DNA of 64,000 nt from NCBI GenBank assembly GCA_025363655.1, contig JANYDK010000011.1, positions 62,001 to 126,000 on the forward strand, read 5' to 3'. This document shows positions 1,432 to 18,896 of this stretch, one piece after another. The notes beneath the pieces were generated by a model. That model saw only the letters and a program-made list of their open reading frames with translations. It was not told where the DNA came from and searched no databases. The position numbers and the translations under genes were made by a program. Every line of letters begins with the position of its first letter. Positions within the stretch are counted from its first letter, which is position 1. Source of the DNA: Deltaproteobacteria bacterium (lineage in GTDB: Bacteria > Myxococcota_A > Polyangia > Polyangiales > JADJMO01).

Positions 1432-2595
1432 ATGGACCTCGAGCTCACCGAAGAGCAGCAGATGATGCGCGACACCGCCCGTGACTTCGCTCAGAAGGAG
1501 GTCGCGCCGAAGGCTGCCGAGCTCGACAAGACCGGCCGTTGGCCGAGCGAGATCGTCGCGCGCATGGGTGAGATGGGCCTCATGGGGGTCGCCATCCCCG
1601 CCGAGCACGGCGGCGCCGGCATGGACGCCATCTCCTACGCCCTCGCGATGGAAGAGATGTGCGCGGCCTGCGCCTCGTCTGGCGTCATCATGAGCGTCAA
1701 CAATTCGCTCTACTGCGACCCCATCAACAAGTACGGCACCCCGGCGCAGAAAGAGCGTTGGCTGGCGCCGTATGCGAGCGGCAAGAAGCTCGGCTGCTTC
1801 GGCCTCACCGAGCCGATGAGCGGGAGCGACGCGCAGACGATGGCCACGTTCGCCGAGCGCAAGGGCGACAAGTGGGTGATCAACGGTTCGAAGAACTGGA
1901 TCACCAACGGCCCGCACGCCGACACCATCCTCGTCTTCTGCATCACCGAACGCCCCGCCGGTGGCACCGCCGAGAACCCCGGCGGGAAGGTGAAACACAC
2001 GGCTTTCCTCGTCGATCGCGGCACCAAGGGGTACACGCAGGCGAAGCATGACGAGAAGCTCGGCATCCACGCTGCGCACTCGTGCACCGTCTTCTTCGAG
2101 AACGTCGAGGTCAGCGACGAGCACCGGCTCGGCCCCGTGGGTGACGGCTTCAAGGTGGCGATGAGCACCCTCGATGGGGGACGCATCGGCATCGCCAGCC
2201 AAGCGCTCGGCATCGCGCGCGCTGCCTTCGAAAAGGCTACCGCCTACGCGAAAGAGCGCAAGTCGTTCGGCACCGTCATCGCCAACCACCAGGCGATCGC
2301 CTTCATGCTCGCCGACATGGCCACCGAGATCGACGCCGCGCGTCTGCTCATCTGGCGCGCCGCCGCGATGAAGGACAAGGGCGTGCGTCACACCACCGAG
2401 TCGGCGATCGCCAAGCTCTTCGCCTCCGAGATGGCCACGCGAGTCGCGCACAAGGCCATCCAGATCCACGGCGGGTACGGGTACTCGCAAGAGTTCGCGG
2501 TCGAGCGTCACTACCGCGACGCACGCATCACCGAGATCTACGAAGGCACGAGCGAAATTCAACGAATCGTCATCGCCGCCAACACGCTGAAGTAA
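1432..2595 (+). CDS. Acyl-CoA dehydrogenase (short/medium-chain type)
   Basis: A 387-residue FAD-dependent acyl-CoA dehydrogenase, the size of a complete short/medium-chain enzyme. It oxidises acyl-CoA to trans-2-enoyl-CoA and passes electrons to electron-transfer flavoprotein in the cytosol. The family signature GLTEPMSGSDA is near residue 125, and the C-terminal IYEGTSEIQR motif places the catalytic Glu at residue 371, as in butyryl- and medium-chain enzymes. The ATG follows a purine-rich GAGCGGGG. A second homologue lies at 4389 on the same strand, separated by two lipoprotein genes, which suggests neighbouring acquisition or duplication rather than one operon. Chain-length specificity is not readable. 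Confidence 0.93.
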   Translation: MDLELTEEQQMMRDTARDFAQKEVAPKAAELDKTGRWPSEIVARMGEMGLMGVAIPAEHGGAGMDAISYALAMEEMCAACASSGVIMSVNNSLYCDPINKYGTPAQKERWLAPYASGKKLGCFGLTEPMSGSDAQTMATFAERKGDKWVINGSKNWITNGPHADTILVFCITERPAGGTAENPGGKVKHTAFLVDRGTKGYTQAKHDEKLGIHAAHSCTVFFENVEVSDEHRLGPVGDGFKVAMSTLDGGRIGIASQALGIARAAFEKATAYAKERKSFGTVIANHQAIAFMLADMATEIDAARLLIWRAAAMKDKGVRHTTESAIAKLFASEMATRVAHKAIQIHGGYGYSQEFAVERHYRDARITEIYEGTSEIQRIVIAANTLK

Positions 2596-5873: not shown

Positions 5874-6809
5874 TCAGAGGATCGCGGCGATCACCGTGGC
5901 AAAGACGATGGCCGCGATCACCGAGAGGACGACGACGTAGATGGCACCGATCACGAACGAAGCCACCACCGCGCTGACCAAAGCCTTGCCCTGTTCGGCG
6001 CGGTGCATCTTTTCGAGCCCGAGCATGTTGAGGAGCACGGTGGCGAGGAAGACGAAGTTGCCGAGGTGTCCCGGCACGAAGAAGAGCAGGCCAGCGACGC
6101 CGGAATAGCCGGCCACGCGCAAGGTGGCGTTGGCCGAGCGCGTCGCCGCCTTCTGCGACTCGAGCATGGAGTGCGAGACCTTGGCGAAGACGTTGACGGC
6201 GATGAACCCCATCGCGGCAGCGACGCCGAGGTTCCAACCGAGCCACAGGAGGTTGCCGACGAACGAGCCATACGAGCCGCCGAAGAGGCCGATGTCGAGG
6301 ATGCCGCCGAAGAGAAAGCCGAAGGCCGCGCGCGCGCTCGCCCCGACGACCCAACAGAGCATGCCGAATTTGACCGCGTCCTTCGGATCTTCGCTGGCCG
6401 CGACGGAGGCGAAGAACTGCTGCGGCTTGGTCATCATCTCGACGGTCTTGAGGAAAGCCGTCATCGTCCCGAGCTGGGCGCGTTGCTCCCAAGGAATGGG
6501 GAGAATCGGCCCCGCCTCGGCGACAGGCTGCTGCTGCGGATAACCCTGCGGGGGTTGTTGCGGATAACCCTGCTGCGGTTGTTGCGGGTACCCTTGCTGC
6601 GGTTGTTGCGGATAGCCCTGTTGCGGTTGTTGCGGGTACCCAGGCTGCGGTTGTTGCGGATAGCCCTGTTGCGGTTGCTGGGGATATCCCTGCTGGGGTT
6701 GCTGCGGATACCCTTGCTGCGGTTGTTGCGGATAGCCCTGCTGCGGCTGCTGCCCAGGGGGATACCCGCCCGGCGGATACCCCGGCGGCTGGCCGCCACC
6801 GGCGCTCAC
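5874..6809 (-). CDS. YIP1-like membrane protein with GYPQQPQQ repeat N-terminus
   Basis: A 311-residue inner-membrane protein. The GTG start at 6807-6809 overlaps the TGA of hutH (GTGA), so translation is probably coupled. Residues 1-24 are Gly/Pro-rich, residues 25-95 are nine copies of an eight-residue GYPQQPQQ unit, and residues ~100-311 form a compact domain with about five hydrophobic segments, resembling the YIP1 family (QFFASVAAS near its start; long Val/Ile/Ala-rich helices at the end). The Gln/Pro/Tyr tail is presumably disordered and cytoplasmic; such tails can bind proteins or phase-separate, but that is inference. The family assignment rests on topology and local motif only. Confidence 0.75.
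6525..6737 (-). repeat. 24-bp in-frame tandem repeat, nine units
   Basis: Nine tandem copies of a 24-bp unit encode GYPQQPQQ (one copy ends in P, one has PPQ, the last is cut short). The copies differ mainly at third codon positions and by single substitutions, as expected for replication-slippage expansion inside a coding sequence. Confidence 0.9.
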
Positions 6810-8383
6810 GAGAGGCCACCGATCGCGGCTTCGACGGCTTCGAGGAGCGAGCCATCGCGGAGGGACTCGGCAACGGAGGCGATTTCTTTGTAGAGCGGCC
6901 GATCGTCGGTGAGCGGTGGGATGGTGCGACGGACGAAGGCGTGCGCGGCCTGGACGCCGGTCGACGGCTTGAGCGGCAAGCGTTGATCGAGGCCGGCGGC
7001 GGCGACGAGGATCTCGATGGCGATGCCGTGGGTGACGTTCTCGACCACCTTCATCAGCTTGAGCGCGCCAACCGAGCCCATCGAGACGTGGTCTTCCTTG
7101 CCTGCCGACGAGGGAATCGAATCGACGCTGGCGGGATGGCACAGCACCTTGTTCTCGCTGACGAGCGAAGCGGCGGCGACCTGCGCGATCATGAAGCCGG
7201 AGTGCAGACCGCTGTGCGGCGCCAGGAAAGGAGTGAGGCCGCCCGAGAGCGCCGGGTTCACCAGCTGCTCGACGCGACGCTCGCTGACGTTGGCGAGCTC
7301 GGCGATGCCGATGGCCGCGAGATCGAGCGCCAACGCGAGGTATTGGCCGTGGAAATTGCCGCCGGAAATGAGCTCGGCGCGAGGCAGGCTCTTGCCCGCG
7401 GCGTCTTCGAGGAAGACGAGCGGGTTGTCGGTGACGGCGTCGACCTCGACCTCGAGGATCTTCCGCACCCAGACGAGCGCGTCGCGCGTGGCGCCGTGCA
7501 CCTGCGGCATGCAGCGGAGCGAATAGGCGTCTTGCACCTTGCTGCAGTGGATGTGGCTCTCGCCGATCTCCGAACCTTCGGAGGGGCCGAGGATGCGCCG
7601 GAGATTGTCCGCGGTGACCTCTTGGCCTGGATGACGACGCACGCGCATGAGGCGCGGATCGAAGGGCCTTCGTGATCCGAGGAGGGCTTCGAGGCTCATC
7701 GCACCGGCGACGTCGGCGGCGCTGGCGAGGCGCTCGGACGTGAGGAGCGCCAGCGCGCCGATCGCAGTCATCATCTGCGTGCCGTTGATGAGCGCGAGCC
7801 CTTCCTTCGCTTCGAGCTCGATCGGCTCGATTCCCGCCAGTTTCATCGCTTCGGCGGAGGGACGCAGCTGACCTTCGTAGTAGGCCTCGCCCTCGCCGAT
7901 GAGCGTCAATGCGAGGTGCGCGAGCGGCGAGAGATCGCCCGACGCGCCGACCGAGCCCTGCGAAGGCACGCGCGGATGAACGCCCTTGTCGAGCATCGCG
8001 CAGAGGCGATCGATCACCAAATCGCGCACGCCGGAGTGACCGGCGGCGAGCACTTGCGCGCGCAGGACGAGCATCGCGCGGACCACCGGGATCGGGAGAT
8101 CGACGCCGATGCCGCACGCATGACTGCGAATGAGGTTGCGCTGGAGACGGCGGATGTCGGCGGCGCCGATGCGCGTCTCCGAGAGCGCGCCGAAGCCGGT
8201 GTTGACGCCGTAGACGTTGGGCGCCGCATCACCACCAGCCGCGAGCGCGTCGATGGCTGCGCGTGCCGCCCGCACCCGCTCGCGCGCGCCGTCGTCGAGC
8301 GCGACCTTGCGACCACGGAGGGCGACAGCGGCCAAATCATCGAGGGAAATGGACCGACCGACGAAGACGGGAGAGGTGCTCAT
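6806..8383 (-). CDS. hutH: Histidine ammonia-lyase
   Basis: A 525-residue aromatic amino acid lyase that deaminates L-histidine to urocanate. The Ala-Ser-Gly triplet that cyclises into the MIO cofactor is at residues 147-149 within [15 protein letters not shown]. The N-terminal YGVNTGFG loop carries the catalytic Tyr (residue 58). The C-terminal EDHVSMG block has the Glu found in histidine lyases rather than the Gln of Phe/Tyr lyases, which supports the substrate call. No other hut gene (urocanase, imidazolonepropionase) lies nearby. The 142-base gap to the divergent lipoprotein gene probably holds its promoter. Confidence 0.92.
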
Positions 8384-8525: not shown

Positions 8526-9182
8526 ATGTCGAATCGTCTTTATTTCTCGGTGATTCTCGCTTCCTTCTCGATGGTCGCGTGCTCCAGCTCGAGCGACGGC
8601 GGGGCGACCCCGACCGCCTCCGCGAGCCCGACCGACTCCAGCGTCACCGACACCGGCAAGGCTGATTCGTCGGGGAGCGATTCGACGACGCCGACCGATA
8701 CGACGGGCACCGACAGCGCCAAGAGCGACACCGGCAGCGGCACCGACACCGCGCCGTTCGACGCGGCGGGCGTCACCTGCGGCTCGAGCACCTGCACCGG
8801 CAGCCAAATCTGCTGCGTCGATCCCTCCGGCCCGACCTTCACCTGCGCCGCGTCGTGCTCCGACGGCGGCGTCGCAATCAACTGCGACGGTCCCGAAGAT
8901 TGCACGGGCGGTGGCAAGGTCTGCTGCGGCACCATCAACGTCGGCGCCGGCACTCCGCCGACCTGCCCGATCAGCACCGGCTCGGCAGCCTGCGCGAGCA
9001 CTTGCGACACGAAGATTCCCACCAGCTGCCCGGACAAGGGCTCGGCTCGCCTCTGCCATGCCGCCGCCGATTGCGCGTCGGACGCGAGCAACAAGAACTG
9101 CTGCACCTTCAGCGCGGGCGGCGCCAGCGGCACGTTCTGCGTCGGCGACGCCTACAAGCTGATCGCCGACAGCTGCTTCTGA
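8526..9182 (+). CDS. Cys-rich lipoprotein with Ser/Thr/Asp linker, unknown function
   Basis: A 218-residue secreted protein. The ATG at 8526 is preceded by a good Shine-Dalgarno (TGGAGG). The signal peptide ends in lipobox MVAC. A ~70-residue linker of Ser, Thr, Asp and Gly follows, then a Cys-rich body with paired CC and CxxC arrangements (SQICC, KVCCG, NKNCC), which look like stacked disulfide modules. The pattern is common in myxobacterial surface lipoproteins of unknown role. The following phosphoesterase gene starts 69 bases after its stop, and the phased heptamer array lies in that gap. Confidence 0.75.
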   Translation: MSNRLYFSVILASFSMVACSSSSDGGATPTASASPTDSSVTDTGKADSSGSDSTTPTDTTGTDSAKSDTGSGTDTAPFDAAGVTCGSSTCTGSQICCVDPSGPTFTCAASCSDGGVAINCDGPEDCTGGGKVCCGTINVGAGTPPTCPISTGSAACASTCDTKIPTSCPDKGSARLCHAAADCASDASNKNCCTFSAGGASGTFCVGDAYKLIADSCF

Positions 9183-9183
9183 A

Positions 9184-9220
9184 TTCACGCGCGTTCACGC
9201 ATCCTTCACGCCATTCACGC
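9184..9220 (+). promoter_or_regulatory. Phased direct-repeat array, four TTCACGC heptamers
   Basis: Exact TTCACGC heptamers start at 9184, 9194, 9205 and 9214, spaced 10, 11 and 9 bases, about one helical turn each. The array ends 31 bases before the phosphoesterase ATG. OmpR/PhoB-family regulators bind tandem heptamers with this pitch, and Streptomyces PhoP boxes use GTTCACC units. A phosphate-responsive operator is therefore a natural guess for a phosphatase-family gene; it is not proven here. Confidence 0.55.
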
Positions 9221-9251
9221 GAGAGGCCCGAGGGTGTGGCAAAGTGAAGCG

Positions 9252-10739
9252 ATGCGTTCGCTTCGCTTTGCCTTGCCCTTCGCCGCTGCGTCCATTCTTT
9301 CGTCCACGATCGCGTTGGTCGGGTGTTCCTCGAAATCGACTGACGCGACGCCGACCGACGTCGGCATCGACGCGGGACCCGACACGCTCGTCGCCGTCGA
9401 TGCCTCGACCGCGCCTCCCGAGTGGGATCGAGCGGTCACGCCGCCGAGCGACGACGAGGCCGCGAAGAACCGCCTCGGCTGCGTCTACAAAGCCGGCGCG
9501 CTCCCGGCCGAGACGCAGGGCAAGTCGTCTCCGAGCGGCGCCAAGATCCCGATCGACACCGTGGTGGTGGTGATGATGGAGAACCGCTCCTTCGATCACT
9601 ATTTCCAGAAGTTGCCGACTGCCACCGGACGCACCGACCTCGAGGTCGCGCCCGACACGTACACCAACCCCGACGTCGACGCCGCGCACACGCCGGTGAA
9701 GCCTTTCCACGACACGCAGCTCTGCTTCGTCGACACCGCGCACGGCTGGGCGGCGTCCCATCAAAGCTGGAACGGTGGGAAGATGGATGGCTTCCTCGCG
9801 GCCAACGAGAACAGCGATCCGGCACCGAAACACGGCACTCCCGAGATGGCGCGCGGTCTGCGAGCGATGACCTACTACGAGCAAGCCGACTTGCCGTTCA
9901 TGTATTGGGCGGCCGAGAACTATTCGATCGCCGATCACTATCATTGCTCGCTCCTCGGCCCGACCTGGCCGAATCGCATGTACCTCTACGCGGCGACGTC
10001 GTTCGGCAAGACCGAGAACAAGGTGCCCGACGCCGGCAAGTCGATGATCCTCTTCGACGAGCTCGAGAGGCGCGGCATCCCCTGGAAGGTCTACGGCAAC
10101 GGCACCATCGGCTTCGGCATCCTCGCTGCGCAGTTCATCAAGTACCGCGAAGAGCACGTCTTCACGCTCGAGGACTACAAGGCCGACGCCGCTGCCGGCA
10201 CGTTGCCGAACGTCGCCTTCGTCGATCCGAACCTCGGCTCCGAGGCCTACAACCAGAACGACGAGCACCCGCCGGCGATGATGCAAGGCGGTCAGGCGTT
10301 CGTCGCCGACGTGACCAAGACGTTGATGGCGAGCCCGCAGTGGAAGCGCTCGGCGCTCTTCCTCACCTACGACGAGCATGGCGGCCTCTGGGATCACGTG
10401 GCGCCGCCTGCCGCTTGCCCGCCTGACGACACGCCGCCGCAGCTCCCCGCGGGCGATCCGCCAGGTGCATTCGATCGTTATGGAGTTCGCGTGCCGCTGG
10501 TGGTCATCTCGCCTTGGGCGAAGAAGCGCTACGTCGGTCACCACACCTACGACCACACCTCGATCGTGCGCTTCATCCAGGCGCGCTTCGTCCTCCCGGC
10601 GATGACCAATCGCGACGCCAATGCCGAGGCGCCGTGGGACCTCTTCGATTTCGGCGCCGCCCGCACCGACACGCCGGCAGTGCCGACGGTGCCGATCGCC
10701 GAAGACAAGCTCGCCAAGTGCAAGGCGATCTTCGAGTGA
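9252..10739 (+). CDS. Secreted phosphoesterase, phospholipase C / acid phosphatase family
   Basis: A 495-residue exported enzyme of the phosphoesterase family that includes bacterial phospholipase C and AcpA-type acid phosphatases. It should hydrolyse phosphate esters outside the inner membrane. I chose the ATG at 9252 (signal peptide, lipobox LVGC) over the GTG at 9234. Family landmarks are MMENRSFDHYF (metal and nucleophile region), GPTWPNRMY, NDEHPP, TYDEHGGLWDHV and the final DHTSIVRFIQ. A short Asp/Thr linker precedes the domain. Phospholipid versus phosphomonoester preference cannot be read. The upstream heptamer array suggests phosphate control. Confidence 0.9.
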   Translation: MRSLRFALPFAAASILSSTIALVGCSSKSTDATPTDVGIDAGPDTLVAVDASTAPPEWDRAVTPPSDDEAAKNRLGCVYKAGALPAETQGKSSPSGAKIPIDTVVVVMMENRSFDHYFQKLPTATGRTDLEVAPDTYTNPDVDAAHTPVKPFHDTQLCFVDTAHGWAASHQSWNGGKMDGFLAANENSDPAPKHGTPEMARGLRAMTYYEQADLPFMYWAAENYSIADHYHCSLLGPTWPNRMYLYAATSFGKTENKVPDAGKSMILFDELERRGIPWKVYGNGTIGFGILAAQFIKYREEHVFTLEDYKADAAAGTLPNVAFVDPNLGSEAYNQNDEHPPAMMQGGQAFVADVTKTLMASPQWKRSALFLTYDEHGGLWDHVAPPAACPPDDTPPQLPAGDPPGAFDRYGVRVPLVVISPWAKKRYVGHHTYDHTSIVRFIQARFVLPAMTNRDANAEAPWDLFDFGAARTDTPAVPTVPIAEDKLAKCKAIFE

Positions 10740-10826: not shown

Positions 10827-12611
10827 GTGAAGAACAGGCACTTCGATAAGAGCATCGTCATCGCGCTGCTCACGGGCGGCGCGATCGCCGGTTGCGGCGG
10901 CAAGTCGAAGCAGGTCGGCAACGCCGAAGCACCGGCGCAGTCACCGCTCGCGAGCGACCCGGCACCGCCCGTTTCGAAGTCGCATCAATTGGCGAGCGTC
11001 GCGCTGCAGACGCCGATCTTCGCGCGTCCCGATCGCGAGTCGAAGAAGCTCGGCTACCTGCGGCTCGGCGCGATCGTGCCGCGCTCGGAGAAGAGCGTCG
11101 CCGGCAGAGGGTGCGTCGGACCGGGCGCCGCTTGGTACGCCATCGATCATGCCGGCTACGTCTGCACGACCAACGCACCGAAGGCCGCGTCGAAATCGCC
11201 GAGTCACGAGAAGGCGCGCTGGGAGCACGAGGCGACGCTCGACCTCGCCCATCCGCTGGTGCGTGCGCTGCGACGACTGCCTGATCTCGACAAGCCGATG
11301 CCGTATCCATATGCCTTCGTTCGCGCGGTGGCGCCGCTCTATTTCCAGGTGCCGACGGCGCAAGAGCAGATGAAGGCCGAGTTCAAGCTGACGCAGCACC
11401 TCACCTCGTACAAGCGCCACACCGACGCCTACAACGCGGTCGAGCACGGTGGCGCCAACGCGGTGATGCTCGGCAAGGACGGCGTCGCGCTCGGCGCTCC
11501 CGAAGCAGCGTATCCGGCGGCGCCCACCGAGAAAGACGAGCACACGCTCTTCGGCGGCAATCTTCCGAACGTCGGCGCGGGCGACGTGCCCGACGATGGT
11601 CTGCCCTGGTGGCTGCACGTCTCGCATGCGCCGAAGGACAACCTGCTCGCTCCACGCTTCGATCGCGACATTCCCAACGTCTCGACCTTCGCCGCGCCCG
11701 ACTATGCCATCTTCGGCGCGCGCATCGCTCGGCATGCTGGCGTCGCGATCATCGGCACCTTCGTCTCGGTCGATGCGGTGGCGAAGAAGAAAGACCCCGT
11801 CAAGATCGCCGAGACGCGTCGCTTCGCCGTCACCATCGACGGGAGGCTGCTCCCCACCGACAAGTTGAAACCGCACGTCGCCTCGGCATTTCATGGCATT
11901 TCGCTGACTGGCGAGGGCGCGCCGACGATGCCCTTCGCCTTCGTGCGCAAGAAGGACGCGCACGTGTACACCGCCAGCGACCTCGGTCACTACTGGCCGA
12001 AGGCGGGCGAGCTCGCCTATCGATCGATCGTCCCGCTCACCGGCAAGGAGCGCCGCTACAAGAAGGTGCGCTACCTCGAGGCGAAGGACGGACGATGGCT
12101 CGACGTCGACGACGTCGCCTACGTCGACGTGCCGGCGAAGGAAGACTGGCCGAAGGAGTTCGACTCCACGAGCACGAAGTGGGTCGACGTCAGCATTTGG
12201 CAGCAGACGCTCGTCGCCTACGAAGGCCAGAAGCCGGTCTACGTGACGTTGATCTCGACCGGCATCGACGGGATGGGCGATCCGAAGAAGACGAAATCGA
12301 CCATCCGCGGCGCCTTTCGCATCGACGCCAAGCACGTGACGACGACGATGGACGCCGACGATCCAGAGAGCAAATTCGAGCTGCGCGACGTGCCTTGGGT
12401 GCAGTACTTCGAGCGCGGCTATGCGCTGCACGCGACGTACTGGCACGACGACTTCGGCAAGCCGCGCAGCCACGGCTGCATCAACCTGGCGCCGATCGAC
12501 GCGCATTGGCTGTTTTTCTGGACCGATCCCGGTTTGCCCGAAGGCTGGCACGGCGTCCGCGCCGACGTCGCGAGCATGAGCCCTGGTACATGGGTGCGGA
12601 TCCACGGCTAG
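10827..12611 (+). CDS. L,D-transpeptidase (YkuD) lipoprotein with SH3-like domain
   Basis: A 594-residue envelope protein. A GTG at 10827 starts a signal peptide with lipobox IAGC; the ORF could extend six codons further upstream, which would spoil the signal. Residues ~55-115 resemble a bacterial SH3 domain. The C-terminal third carries the YkuD L,D-transpeptidase core, with ALHATYWHDDF followed by RSHGCINL, where Cys551 is the nucleophile and the nearby His the base. Such enzymes make 3-3 peptidoglycan crosslinks or anchor proteins to peptidoglycan. The long middle region is unassigned. It lies 87 bases downstream of the phosphoesterase on the same strand. Confidence 0.87.
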   Translation: MKNRHFDKSIVIALLTGGAIAGCGGKSKQVGNAEAPAQSPLASDPAPPVSKSHQLASVALQTPIFARPDRESKKLGYLRLGAIVPRSEKSVAGRGCVGPGAAWYAIDHAGYVCTTNAPKAASKSPSHEKARWEHEATLDLAHPLVRALRRLPDLDKPMPYPYAFVRAVAPLYFQVPTAQEQMKAEFKLTQHLTSYKRHTDAYNAVEHGGANAVMLGKDGVALGAPEAAYPAAPTEKDEHTLFGGNLPNVGAGDVPDDGLPWWLHVSHAPKDNLLAPRFDRDIPNVSTFAAPDYAIFGARIARHAGVAIIGTFVSVDAVAKKKDPVKIAETRRFAVTIDGRLLPTDKLKPHVASAFHGISLTGEGAPTMPFAFVRKKDAHVYTASDLGHYWPKAGELAYRSIVPLTGKERRYKKVRYLEAKDGRWLDVDDVAYVDVPAKEDWPKEFDSTSTKWVDVSIWQQTLVAYEGQKPVYVTLISTGIDGMGDPKKTKSTIRGAFRIDAKHVTTTMDADDPESKFELRDVPWVQYFERGYALHATYWHDDFGKPRSHGCINLAPIDAHWLFFWTDPGLPEGWHGVRADVASMSPGTWVRIHG

Positions 12612-15520: not shown

Positions 15521-17152
15521 TTACGAACGCGAAGAGGGCGGAGGTGCGCCTTTTCCACCTGGGCCGCGAACCGGCAAGCGCAAAGCGAAGACGCTGCCGA
15601 CGCCGTCGTCTCCAGCCTCGACCGTGACCTCGCCGCCGTGCGCTTCGGCGATGTGCCAGACCAGCGCGAGGCCGATTCCGCTTCCTCGGACTTGCCCCGA
15701 TCGGGCTGATTTTCCGCGGTAGAATCGCTCGAAGATGCGCGGCCTCTCCTCGGGCGCGATGCCCGGTCCGAGGTCGACGACCTTGACCGAGTAGGCGTCC
15801 TCACCGCCGACCGTTCCATCTCGCGCCACGATCACCCGCACCACCTCGGTGCCAGTGGCGTACTTGATGGCGTTCTCCACCAGGTTGATGACCGCGAGCT
15901 GCAACGCCCGCTCGTCGACGACCACCGGGGGCAGCTCGGGCGCGACCTCGAGCTCGAGGCGCATGCCCTCGGTCTCGGCGCGATAGCGACAGGCCTCGAC
16001 GGCGCGGACGACGGTCGGCTCGAGATCGGCGTCGCGGTACGAATAGGCCGCTTTTCCTCGTTCGACCCGGGCGAAGTCGAGCACGTTCTCGATCAGCGCG
16101 GTGAGCCGCTCGCTCTCGCGGACGATGATCGAGAGGTACTGCGCGCGCTTCTCCTCGCTCGCCACGCGTCCGGTCATCAAGAGCTCGCCGAACATGCGGA
16201 CGAGCGAGAGCGGCGTCTTCAGCTCGTGCGAGACGTTGGCGACGAACTCACCACGCGCCCGCGCGAGCCGCCTCTCTTGCGCGGTCGCGATGAGGACGAC
16301 GATGAGCCCGGCGACGACGACCACGCACGAGAGACCGAGCAGCGCCATCTCGGTGAGTCGACGACGACGCATCTGCGCGGCGAGCTCGTCGGCCTTGAGC
16401 GGCGCGACCTGCAGGCGCCAAGCGTAGAGCGTGGTCGGGAAGCGCTTGGCGACGACGATGTCACTCGTGATCAGCGGCTTGCCGAAGATGATGTTGCCTT
16501 GATCGTCGACGACGTTCACGCGCGCCGGCGTCGAGGTGCCCGGATCAGGCACGATTTGCGGGAGAAGCTCGCGAAGGACGGCGTCGAGATCGTGATGGAC
16601 GACGAGCAACCGCTCCCCACTCGCGCCGCTCTCGGTCCGGAAGGGCACGCGCCAATAGGCGAGGAGGTAGAACTGACCGTCGTAGGCTTTGTGCAGGTGC
16701 TTGAGCTCGCCGAGGGGCAGCGTCGAGAGATCGAAATCGGCGAGGATCGTGCGCAGAAAGAGCACCCGAAAGGCATCGTCGGCCGGCCCGGGTGCGCGCG
16801 ACGCGAAGCCGACGATCTCGCGTTCTTTGGTCGCGTCGAGGACCACGACATGGGCGATGGTCGGCGTCTGACGCATGATCGCGCGCCAGCGCTTGGGCAC
16901 GTCGTCCGGCCTTCCGCCTTCACCGAGCGAGATCACCGCGTCGTCGGCCTCGACGATGGCGCGATCGACGCGATCGATCTTCTCGTCGGCGAGCCCGAAG
17001 GTCACCTCCGAGAGCGACTGCGTGCGCAGCGCCTCGATCTTGAACGTCGTGCGGTAGGTGACGACCGCGAGGATGATCGCGGCGACGATGATCGCCGGCA
17101 GGAGGATCCACGTGCGCCGCCGGGAAGACGCTTCGGGATCCCAACGCCTCAT
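15521..17152 (-). CDS. Membrane sensor histidine kinase
   Basis: A 543-residue two-component sensor kinase. TM1 spans ~15-33 and TM2 ~269-289, enclosing a ~235-residue periplasmic sensor region of no family I can name. There is no obvious HAMP domain; a short ERRLARAR stretch leads directly to the H-box FVANVSHELKTPLS with phosphoacceptor His309. The ATPase domain has NLVENAIKYA (N box), DLGPGIAPEE (G1), FERFYRG (F box) and GSGIGLALV (G2), so it looks active. No partner response regulator is adjacent. It begins four bases after the stop of the GAF-protein gene, so the two are cotranscribed. Confidence 0.93.
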   Translation of the reverse strand: MRRWDPEASSRRRTWILLPAIIVAAIILAVVTYRTTFKIEALRTQSLSEVTFGLADEKIDRVDRAIVEADDAVISLGEGGRPDDVPKRWRAIMRQTPTIAHVVVLDATKEREIVGFASRAPGPADDAFRVLFLRTILADFDLSTLPLGELKHLHKAYDGQFYLLAYWRVPFRTESGASGERLLVVHHDLDAVLRELLPQIVPDPGTSTPARVNVVDDQGNIIFGKPLITSDIVVAKRFPTTLYAWRLQVAPLKADELAAQMRRRRLTEMALLGLSCVVVVAGLIVVLIATAQERRLARARGEFVANVSHELKTPLSLVRMFGELLMTGRVASEEKRAQYLSIIVRESERLTALIENVLDFARVERGKAAYSYRDADLEPTVVRAVEACRYRAETEGMRLELEVAPELPPVVVDERALQLAVINLVENAIKYATGTEVVRVIVARDGTVGGEDAYSVKVVDLGPGIAPEERPRIFERFYRGKSARSGQVRGSGIGLALVWHIAEAHGGEVTVEAGDDGVGSVFALRLPVRGPGGKGAPPPSSRS

Positions 17153-17156
17153 GCGG

Positions 17157-18896
17157 TCATGGACGGCGCCCGCCAGCGTCGAGCGCCGCGAAGCCGCCGG
17201 TGTCGGCCGCGGTCAACTTGACGCCGCGCTCGGCGACGAACTCGCCGAACTGCTCACCGATGTACGTGATGCCGTGCAGCTCCGCCTCGGAGAACGGCTG
17301 ACCGTCGACGTGATCGGCCACCTCGATGGCGCCGAGGTAACGCTGGCCTTGCTTCACCGGGACCAGCACGATCGATTGCGGCTCGTGCCCCGCAGCGACG
17401 TACCGATCGCGTGCCCAGCGCGCATCGTTGATGGCGTCGAGGAGCAAGCCGTTGCCTTTTTTCACCGCGGTAGTGAGGAGGCCATCACCTTCCCGCTCAC
17501 GCATCCCGAGGATGCTCGACACCGGCGCGCGCGCCTTCACGATGACGAAAGTCTTCTGGTTGATGTCGTAGAAGTGGATGATCGCGACCTTCGAGGGCAG
17601 CTTGTCGCGGAGGAGATCGAGGATGAAATCGGCGCCCTCGAGCGCGTCGCGGAGGAAGTGGAGATCGTGCATGGCCTCGAAGAGATCGGCCATCAGATCT
17701 TCGGGGCGCTTGGCGCGTGATGCGGTCGGGATCTTCGCGGCGAGCGCCGGCGCGACCGGTGCTGCAGAGGCTGTAGGCGCGGCGATGGGTGCGGCCACGG
17801 GTGCGGCGATGGGCGGAGCGGACGAAGCCGTTGCCACTGGTGGTGCTACCGGCGCGGAAGGTACGACAGGCGCGATGGGAACCGACGGCGCCGCGGCGGC
17901 CGGAGGTATCGACTTCGGCAACGGTGCTTCGACCAGGGCTGCGGCTGCGATCTCGGCCGAGACACCGACGGCATCCATCCGCGGACGCGAAGGCGCACGC
18001 GTCGCGGGCGTCAGCTCGGCGGTCGGATTGGGCGGCGCAGCGCCGGAATGCGAAGCCGACGGGAAGGTGACGATCGGCTCGGGCGACCAGTCCTTCCACT
18101 TCAGCGTCACGATCGGCGGACGCTCAGGGCGCTTTTCCCAACGGTGATCGAAGATCGCGAGCTGCACCAGTCGCCCTGCGGGCGCATGCGCTTGATCGAG
18201 CTCCCAGCGCACCAAATCGAGATGCACGTGCGCAGCCGCGCCGGCGATGGTGGTCGTGGTCCCTACCGGCACGACGACCGCGAGCTCGCGATAGGTGAGC
18301 GGCGCTTTGCTGTTCGGATCTTCGCCGCGACGGAAGAAGACCTCGCCGTGCTCTTTGCCGATGGTCGGTTTCGGACGCGGCGGCGCGGTCGGTCGAGGCG
18401 CCGCAGCCGGAGGCACCGACGGCGCCTTGGCAGCAGATGATGCAGGTGCAGCAGGCGCAGCAGATACAGCGGGTGCATTCACCGCGCCTGGAGGTGGCGG
18501 CGGAGACACGGCATCGGCCGCGGCAGCAACGACCGCAGCCGTCGTCCGCGCACCAATGGGAACGGTCTTCGCCGAGCGACGCATCGCCGAAGCCGCAATG
18601 CTCGCAGGTGTCGATATCGGCGCGCTCGAAGGCGGCGGCACCGAAGGAGGCGGCGCATCGGCAGTGACAGCAGCATCGTCGGGCGCACGCGTGACTTGAT
18701 AGCGAACGCGAGCCGCAGCGTTGGTGGCTCGGTACCCTTCGGAGAGCACCTCGATCGTGAAGCTGGAGAGCGGCGCCGTGTCCGCGCGCGACGTCCGCAC
18801 CTGCGAGAGAGCTGCCTGCCAGCCCGGTGCATCGACGGTGACCTTGGTCGCCGCACCGCCGGAAGAAAGGGTCGCGACCTCGACAAACCAACGCAT
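17157..18896 (-). CDS. GAF-domain protein with Pro/Ala-rich linker
   Basis: A 579-residue soluble protein. Residues 1-70 form a small alpha/beta domain (MRWFVEVATLSSGGAATKV), residues ~75-415 are mostly Ala/Pro/Val low-complexity sequence interrupted by a folded segment near 175-290, and residues ~420-565 form a GAF-like domain (LHFLRDALEGADFILDLL, VAIIHFYDINQKTFVIVKA, SIVLVPVKQGQRYLGAIEVAD, FSEAELHGITYIGEQFGEFV). GAF domains bind small ligands or sense redox state. It lies immediately upstream of the histidine kinase (four-base gap), suggesting it feeds or modulates that kinase. That is inference. Confidence 0.78.
   Translation of the reverse strand: MRWFVEVATLSSGGAATKVTVDAPGWQAALSQVRTSRADTAPLSSFTIEVLSEGYRATNAAARVRYQVTRAPDDAAVTADAPPPSVPPPSSAPISTPASIAASAMRRSAKTVPIGARTTAAVVAAAADAVSPPPPPGAVNAPAVSAAPAAPASSAAKAPSVPPAAAPRPTAPPRPKPTIGKEHGEVFFRRGEDPNSKAPLTYRELAVVVPVGTTTTIAGAAAHVHLDLVRWELDQAHAPAGRLVQLAIFDHRWEKRPERPPIVTLKWKDWSPEPIVTFPSASHSGAAPPNPTAELTPATRAPSRPRMDAVGVSAEIAAAALVEAPLPKSIPPAAAAPSVPIAPVVPSAPVAPPVATASSAPPIAAPVAAPIAAPTASAAPVAPALAAKIPTASRAKRPEDLMADLFEAMHDLHFLRDALEGADFILDLLRDKLPSKVAIIHFYDINQKTFVIVKARAPVSSILGMREREGDGLLTTAVKKGNGLLLDAINDARWARDRYVAAGHEPQSIVLVPVKQGQRYLGAIEVADHVDGQPFSEAELHGITYIGEQFGEFVAERGVKLTAADTGGFAALDAGGRRP

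Follow-up and report, generated by a model that had tools for sequence, protein, structure and literature searches.

A stretch of 64,000 nucleotides of a 9.04-Mb myxobacterial genome, most probably from the order Polyangiales, was analyzed (hereafter, the window). Within it, a lipoprotein gene (positions 8526–9182, forward strand) is followed by a lipoprotein phosphoesterase gene on the same strand (9252–10739), with a 69-bp gap between the stop codon of the first (TGA, 9180–9182) and the ATG of the second (9252). The upstream lipoprotein is rich in cysteine and has a lipobox (VAC) and homologues in four family relatives, but no Pfam or NCBIfam match. The phosphoesterase belongs to PF04185 (E-value 7.3e-82), the phospholipase C/acid phosphatase superfamily; its match to the NCBIfam PC_PLC model is below cut-off. 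Its relatives are in Polyangium, Minicystis, and Polyangiaceae-type MAGs, the closest orthologues being in different genera with 60–62% protein identity, and there is a paralogue in the same genome (59%). Directly upstream of the lipoprotein gene, on the opposite strand, is a histidine ammonia-lyase gene (hutH, 6809–8383; NCBIfam match over cut-off), and downstream of the phosphoesterase is a forward-strand gene for an L,D-transpeptidase (YkuD) lipoprotein (10827–12611; PF03734, E-value 3.7e-19).

The 69-bp gap contains four exact forward-strand copies of the heptamer TTCACGC (9184–9190, 9194–9200, 9205–9211, and 9214–9220), whose starts are separated by steps of 10, 11, and 9 bp. An earlier note made from the DNA sequence had described four identical heptamers at these intervals between the lipoprotein and phosphoesterase genes, and exact matching bears out both the copies and their placement. 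The array is 37 bp long, begins 2 nt past the lipoprotein stop codon, ends 31 bp ahead of the ATG, and so occupies the region 31–68 bp upstream of the phosphoesterase. Relative to a helical turn of 10.5 bp, all copies are within about 1.5 bp of one face. In this arrangement, direct repeats facing the same way at intervals of roughly one helical turn ahead of a gene, the array resembles tandem operators of OmpR-family regulators in general. When the copies are aligned with their flanks, column identity is 100% within the heptamer (28 of 28 positions intact) and 25%, the random level, outside it. The earlier note had also suggested that the array might drive the L,D-transpeptidase gene, but nothing linking the two was found. 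The annotated neighbors of the array include no response-regulator gene, the nearest regulatory genes found being those for a histidine kinase (15524–17152) and a GAF protein (17160–18896).

The start of the phosphoesterase is uncertain, because an alternative GTG start codon (9234, forward strand) is preceded by a good Shine-Dalgarno-like sequence, GAGAGG (9221–9226), directly after the array. A consensus scan of the region found no promoter or sigma-70 site and no recognizable -10 element, and a terminator search also gave no result. In the phosphoesterase homologues and other lipoprotein genes, a weak sequence profile suggests short-leader promoters, with a -10 element near the ATG. By analogy, CAAAGT (9240–9245, forward strand), 6 nt before the ATG and matching at three of six positions, might be a weak -10-like hexamer.

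Within the window, TTCACGC is not significantly enriched as a word: there are 21 copies where 14 are expected, a number reached by 9 of 100 shuffled sequences. Its arrangement is another matter. This is the only four-copy heptamer array in the window with steps of 8–12 bp, and none appeared in 20 length-matched third-order Markov sequences. From measured heptamer frequencies, arrays of this kind in any heptamer should arise by chance at 7.4e-4 per 64 kb, or 0.1 per genome, and with the steps narrowed to 9–11 bp at 1.6e-4 per 64 kb, or 0.02 per genome. The earlier note's judgment that a chance origin is very unlikely thus holds for this window, although not for surveys of thousands of windows.

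The array could nevertheless be non-functional, having arisen in a short unconstrained gap as repeats turned over locally, by slippage or by template switching with variable junctions, or in part by coincidence; we consider this a substantial possibility, if somewhat short of an even chance. The genomic background lends it weight. A 1.65-Mb sample (18% of the genome) yields 18 four-copy heptamer arrays whose steps are 8–12 bp, including the one described here and excluding one run of N. Their words are unrelated, and several of the non-coding ones occupy short intergenic gaps. Direct-repeat arrays with a period of 8–12 bp and unrelated units were noted in such gaps at L180 12817–12856, L193 10837–10873, L130 14158–14186, L184 14973–15004, and L210 17789–17817. 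Short intergenic direct-repeat arrays are a general trait of this genome, perhaps originating by replication slippage. With several arrays located in gaps of this kind, intergenic slippage is a live explanation, and the TTCACGC array resembles slippage products in its period, its position in a short gap between genes, and the commonness of such arrays in the genome.

It differs from them in its spacers, however. In short tandem repeats made by slippage the copies share spacers as well as core, while here an exact heptamer is set in mutually unrelated sequence. Flank identity (0.25) is the lowest of the 18 four-copy arrays, the others ranging from 0.29 to 0.88. Sharp edges of this kind are found in 21 of the 94 heptamer arrays with at least three copies in the 1.65-Mb sample, but in only this one with four. 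Had a longer repeat decayed neutrally, all 28 heptamer positions would not have been left intact while the flanks became random, and for pure coincidence the expectation of 0.02–0.1 per genome is calculated before the array is also required to be intergenic. An origin by ordinary slippage is therefore disfavored, since the spacers are not shared and the flanks are at the random level.

In the genome, this is the sole four-copy TTCACGC cluster. The pair pattern occurs in eight places, the array included; of the remaining seven, rough ORF calling puts five within coding frames, one spans the start codon of a hisH-like gene (C68), and one is an intergenic pair (C67). Triples of the shorter TTCAC with one-turn spacing were found by a genome scan at the array and two other places only. 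A genome-wide TTCACGC regulon was rejected, the matches besides the array being coding repeats (for example a triple within an ORF on C142), the hisH-like start-codon duplication, and the one intergenic pair. At the hisH-like gene, the start codon region is duplicated, with ATGAGCGTGAA occurring as a tandem repeat ahead of the gene (L004 1501–1518).

In the order as a whole, 8 of 184 genomes have TTCACGC triples. All TTCACGC triples besides the array are in unrelated contexts, some directly after a stop codon, and have identical spacers. The frequency-matched control word CCATCGT forms triples in 7 of the 184, and TCGCATC, a composition-matched control chosen because it is array-forming in this genome, in 16. 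TTCACGC triples being no commoner than those of the controls, the idea that the word is under selection or especially prone to forming arrays across the order was rejected, and the counts are in keeping with a non-functional array. The same survey also argues the other way. For TTCACGC and both control words, arrays across the order nearly always have identical or similar spacers; ordinary slippage thus leaves a different signature from that of the array. In another genome of the order, an 11-bp unit, ATTCACGCCCG, was seen in six intergenic copies (L240, about 1468–1545, minus strand; G018:C301), followed by a gene for a putative translational GTPase with a TypA-like N-terminus. No match was found in a plasmid collection, and literature searches for TTCACGC arrays turned up nothing of relevance. 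The earlier note had made the array's standing depend in part on its conservation in relatives. No such array is present upstream of the inspected phosphoesterase homologues, including the genome's own paralogue on C133, the closest orthologues being only 60–62% identical; this too is as a non-functional array would have it.

The interpretation first proposed was a phosphate-responsive site for PhoB or PhoP. In its favor, the target is a phosphoesterase-family gene, the helical phasing would suit an OmpR-family protein, and of the published Pho units, CTGTCAT in E. coli and GTTCACC in S. coelicolor (PMC4415409), the second resembles TTCACGC. The genome supplies its own standard of comparison in a pst-pho locus on C116, with genes for a phosphate-selective porin (Porin_O_P, PF07396), an OmpR-family regulator, a kinase-like protein, pstB, a phoU-like protein, and pstS. 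The best NCBIfam model for the regulator is PhoB (TIGR02154), although below its curated cut-off. Ahead of the Porin_O_P gene is CGTCAT-N5-CGTCAC (CGTCATCCCGTCGTCAC; G000:C116:277222; L191 7222–7238), and ahead of phoB is CGTCAT-N5-TGTCAC (CGTCATCTGGTTGTCAC; G000:C116:278989; L191 8989–9005), the latter followed by TACAGT, with the ATG 7 nt later. Both are 11-bp repeats with a GTCA core. Judged by their sequences, they are classical PhoB boxes and define the PhoB word for this lineage. A genome scan with this local Pho box recovered both sites among 14 matches, against 2 for a reversed control.

The array differs from these boxes. Like a PhoB box, it precedes a gene concerned with phosphate chemistry and consists of direct 7-nt repeats spaced by about one turn, but its core is TTCA rather than the GTCA of the E. 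coli unit and the genome's own pho genes, where the form is (C/T)GTCA(T/C), and its steps are 10, 11, and 9 bp rather than exactly 11. The best match to the local box anywhere in the gap has mismatches at 3 of 12 positions, and roughly one in four random 69-mers does as well or better. The presumed -10-like hexamer lies about 19 nt beyond the array's final copy, as compared with about 10 at phoB. The resemblance to the Streptomyces PhoP box, which has GTTCACC units of 11 nt, extends to the common TTCAC: the bases preceding the four copies are A, G, C, and A, so that one copy in four has the leading G; a G follows TTCAC where the PhoP unit ends in C; the steps are again not 11; and the host is not an actinobacterium. 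The pst-pho locus has isolated copies of TTCACGC but no cluster, and no multi-copy cluster was found near any phosphate gene elsewhere in the genome, the check that the earlier note had put forward; nor is the motif repeated ahead of other phosphate-starvation genes. Two of the three results that by the earlier note's own account would count against it were thus obtained: a lack of further genomic matches by phosphate genes and a lack of conservation, the latter among relatives of different genera at 60–62% protein identity. The phosphate reading is unsupported because of the difference in core and in steps and the chance-level match to the local box. A Pho box was rejected on sequence, spacing, and genome distribution, and induction of the phosphoesterase through such a site under phosphate limitation is very improbable indeed. 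What survives of the original proposal is its more general part, a site for some tandem-binding regulator, for which the exact copies, unrelated spacers, single helix face, and location in a 5′ gap leave room.

Downstream of the array is a second unusual feature, a 15-bp inverted repeat, GGCAAAGTGAAGCGA-TGCGT-TCGCTTCGCTTTGCC, which spans the ATG at 9252 (9238–9272, forward strand) and which the earlier note had missed. It is among the strongest few in the 1.65-Mb sample. As RNA it is predicted to form a hairpin of -25.7 kcal/mol, the most stable among 101 lipoprotein start regions (the runner-up is at -15.2 kcal/mol). The fold of 9183–9290 is correspondingly stable (z = -4.11), while that of 9170–9260, in which the 3′ arm of the hairpin is cut off, is unremarkable (z = -0.53). 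The hairpin arm was also considered as a recurrent motif and set aside, matches with up to two mismatches numbering 75 as against 53 for a reversed-pattern control, a modest excess. On the view that the array is non-functional, this perfect inverted repeat beside it would have arisen through the same turnover process. Alternatively, the occurrence of so unusual a hairpin within the same 90 bp as the array suggests that this 5′ region is special.

The array might then act at the RNA level, as part of a leader in which copies of UUCAC and the coding strand would be rivals for pairing with the 5′ arm of the start-codon hairpin, so that access to the start is tuned. Beyond the rank of the hairpin and the stability of the longer fold, this has in its favor the predicted duplex between copy 3, with its flanks, and the 5′ arm (-21.7 kcal/mol). 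Copies 1, 2, and 4, however, pair with it weakly (-7 to -11 kcal/mol), the local hairpin prevails whenever its 3′ arm is part of the folded sequence, and no start-codon hairpin was seen in the phosphoesterase homologues. Moreover, a transcript that began close to the ATG would leave the array outside what the gene's own promoter transcribes. Control of this type is unlikely. A composite of the 90 bp is also conceivable, with a four-site operator followed by the start-codon hairpin, copy 3 competing for the 5′ arm, and the choice of transcription start or a bound protein toggling translation; we regard this elaboration as less probable again.

The array is, in sum, real, not easily dismissed as ordinary slippage, and not a Pho box, and any function must be putative. 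Our tentative preference, held at a little below even probability, is that it is a locus-private tandem operator for a putative DNA-binding factor other than PhoB. In the gap ahead of the phosphoesterase gene, the protomers of such a protein would occupy the four TTCACGC half-sites, aligned along the same helix face by the spacing of roughly one turn. If the last copy serves as the -35 position, the promoter being of the short-leader type, the protein would activate that gene; alternatively, it would repress it. We infer binding in a promoter region from the four exact copies in unrelated spacers, from the array being the only four-copy, sharp-edged one among 94, with a chance expectation of 7e-4 per window, and from its position shortly upstream of the ATG, given that homologues of the gene, judging from the sequence profile, seem to be transcribed from their own short-leader promoters. 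Telling against it are the points that no second non-coding site with more than two TTCACGC copies was found in the genome, that the inspected homologues lack the array, that a recognizable -10 element and an adjoining response-regulator gene are missing, and that short arrays are frequent in intergenic gaps. The balance between an operator and a non-functional array rests on the base rate assumed for exact four-site operators.

Among known systems, a close likeness is to OmpR/PhoB-family tandem operators such as the tor boxes of TorR at E. coli torCAD, which have a four-decamer arrangement: there, too, several direct repeats lie about 10 bp apart in a promoter region. TorR binds its tor boxes individually, with differing affinity (PMC9239176). 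The array differs in its word, in consisting of exact heptamers only, and in its steps of 10, 11, and 9 bp, and it is a candidate site by sequence for which a TorR-like partner was not found.

In genomes as GC-rich as this one, slippage arrays form a high background, which any assessment of exact short direct repeats must take into account. The genome's own Pho boxes, as classical PhoB boxes, are usable for reading phosphate regulons in Polyangiales. If the preferred reading is correct, a secreted phosphoesterase from a myxobacterial lineage that has been little studied would have an operator private to it, and the regulator could be fished out with the DNA.
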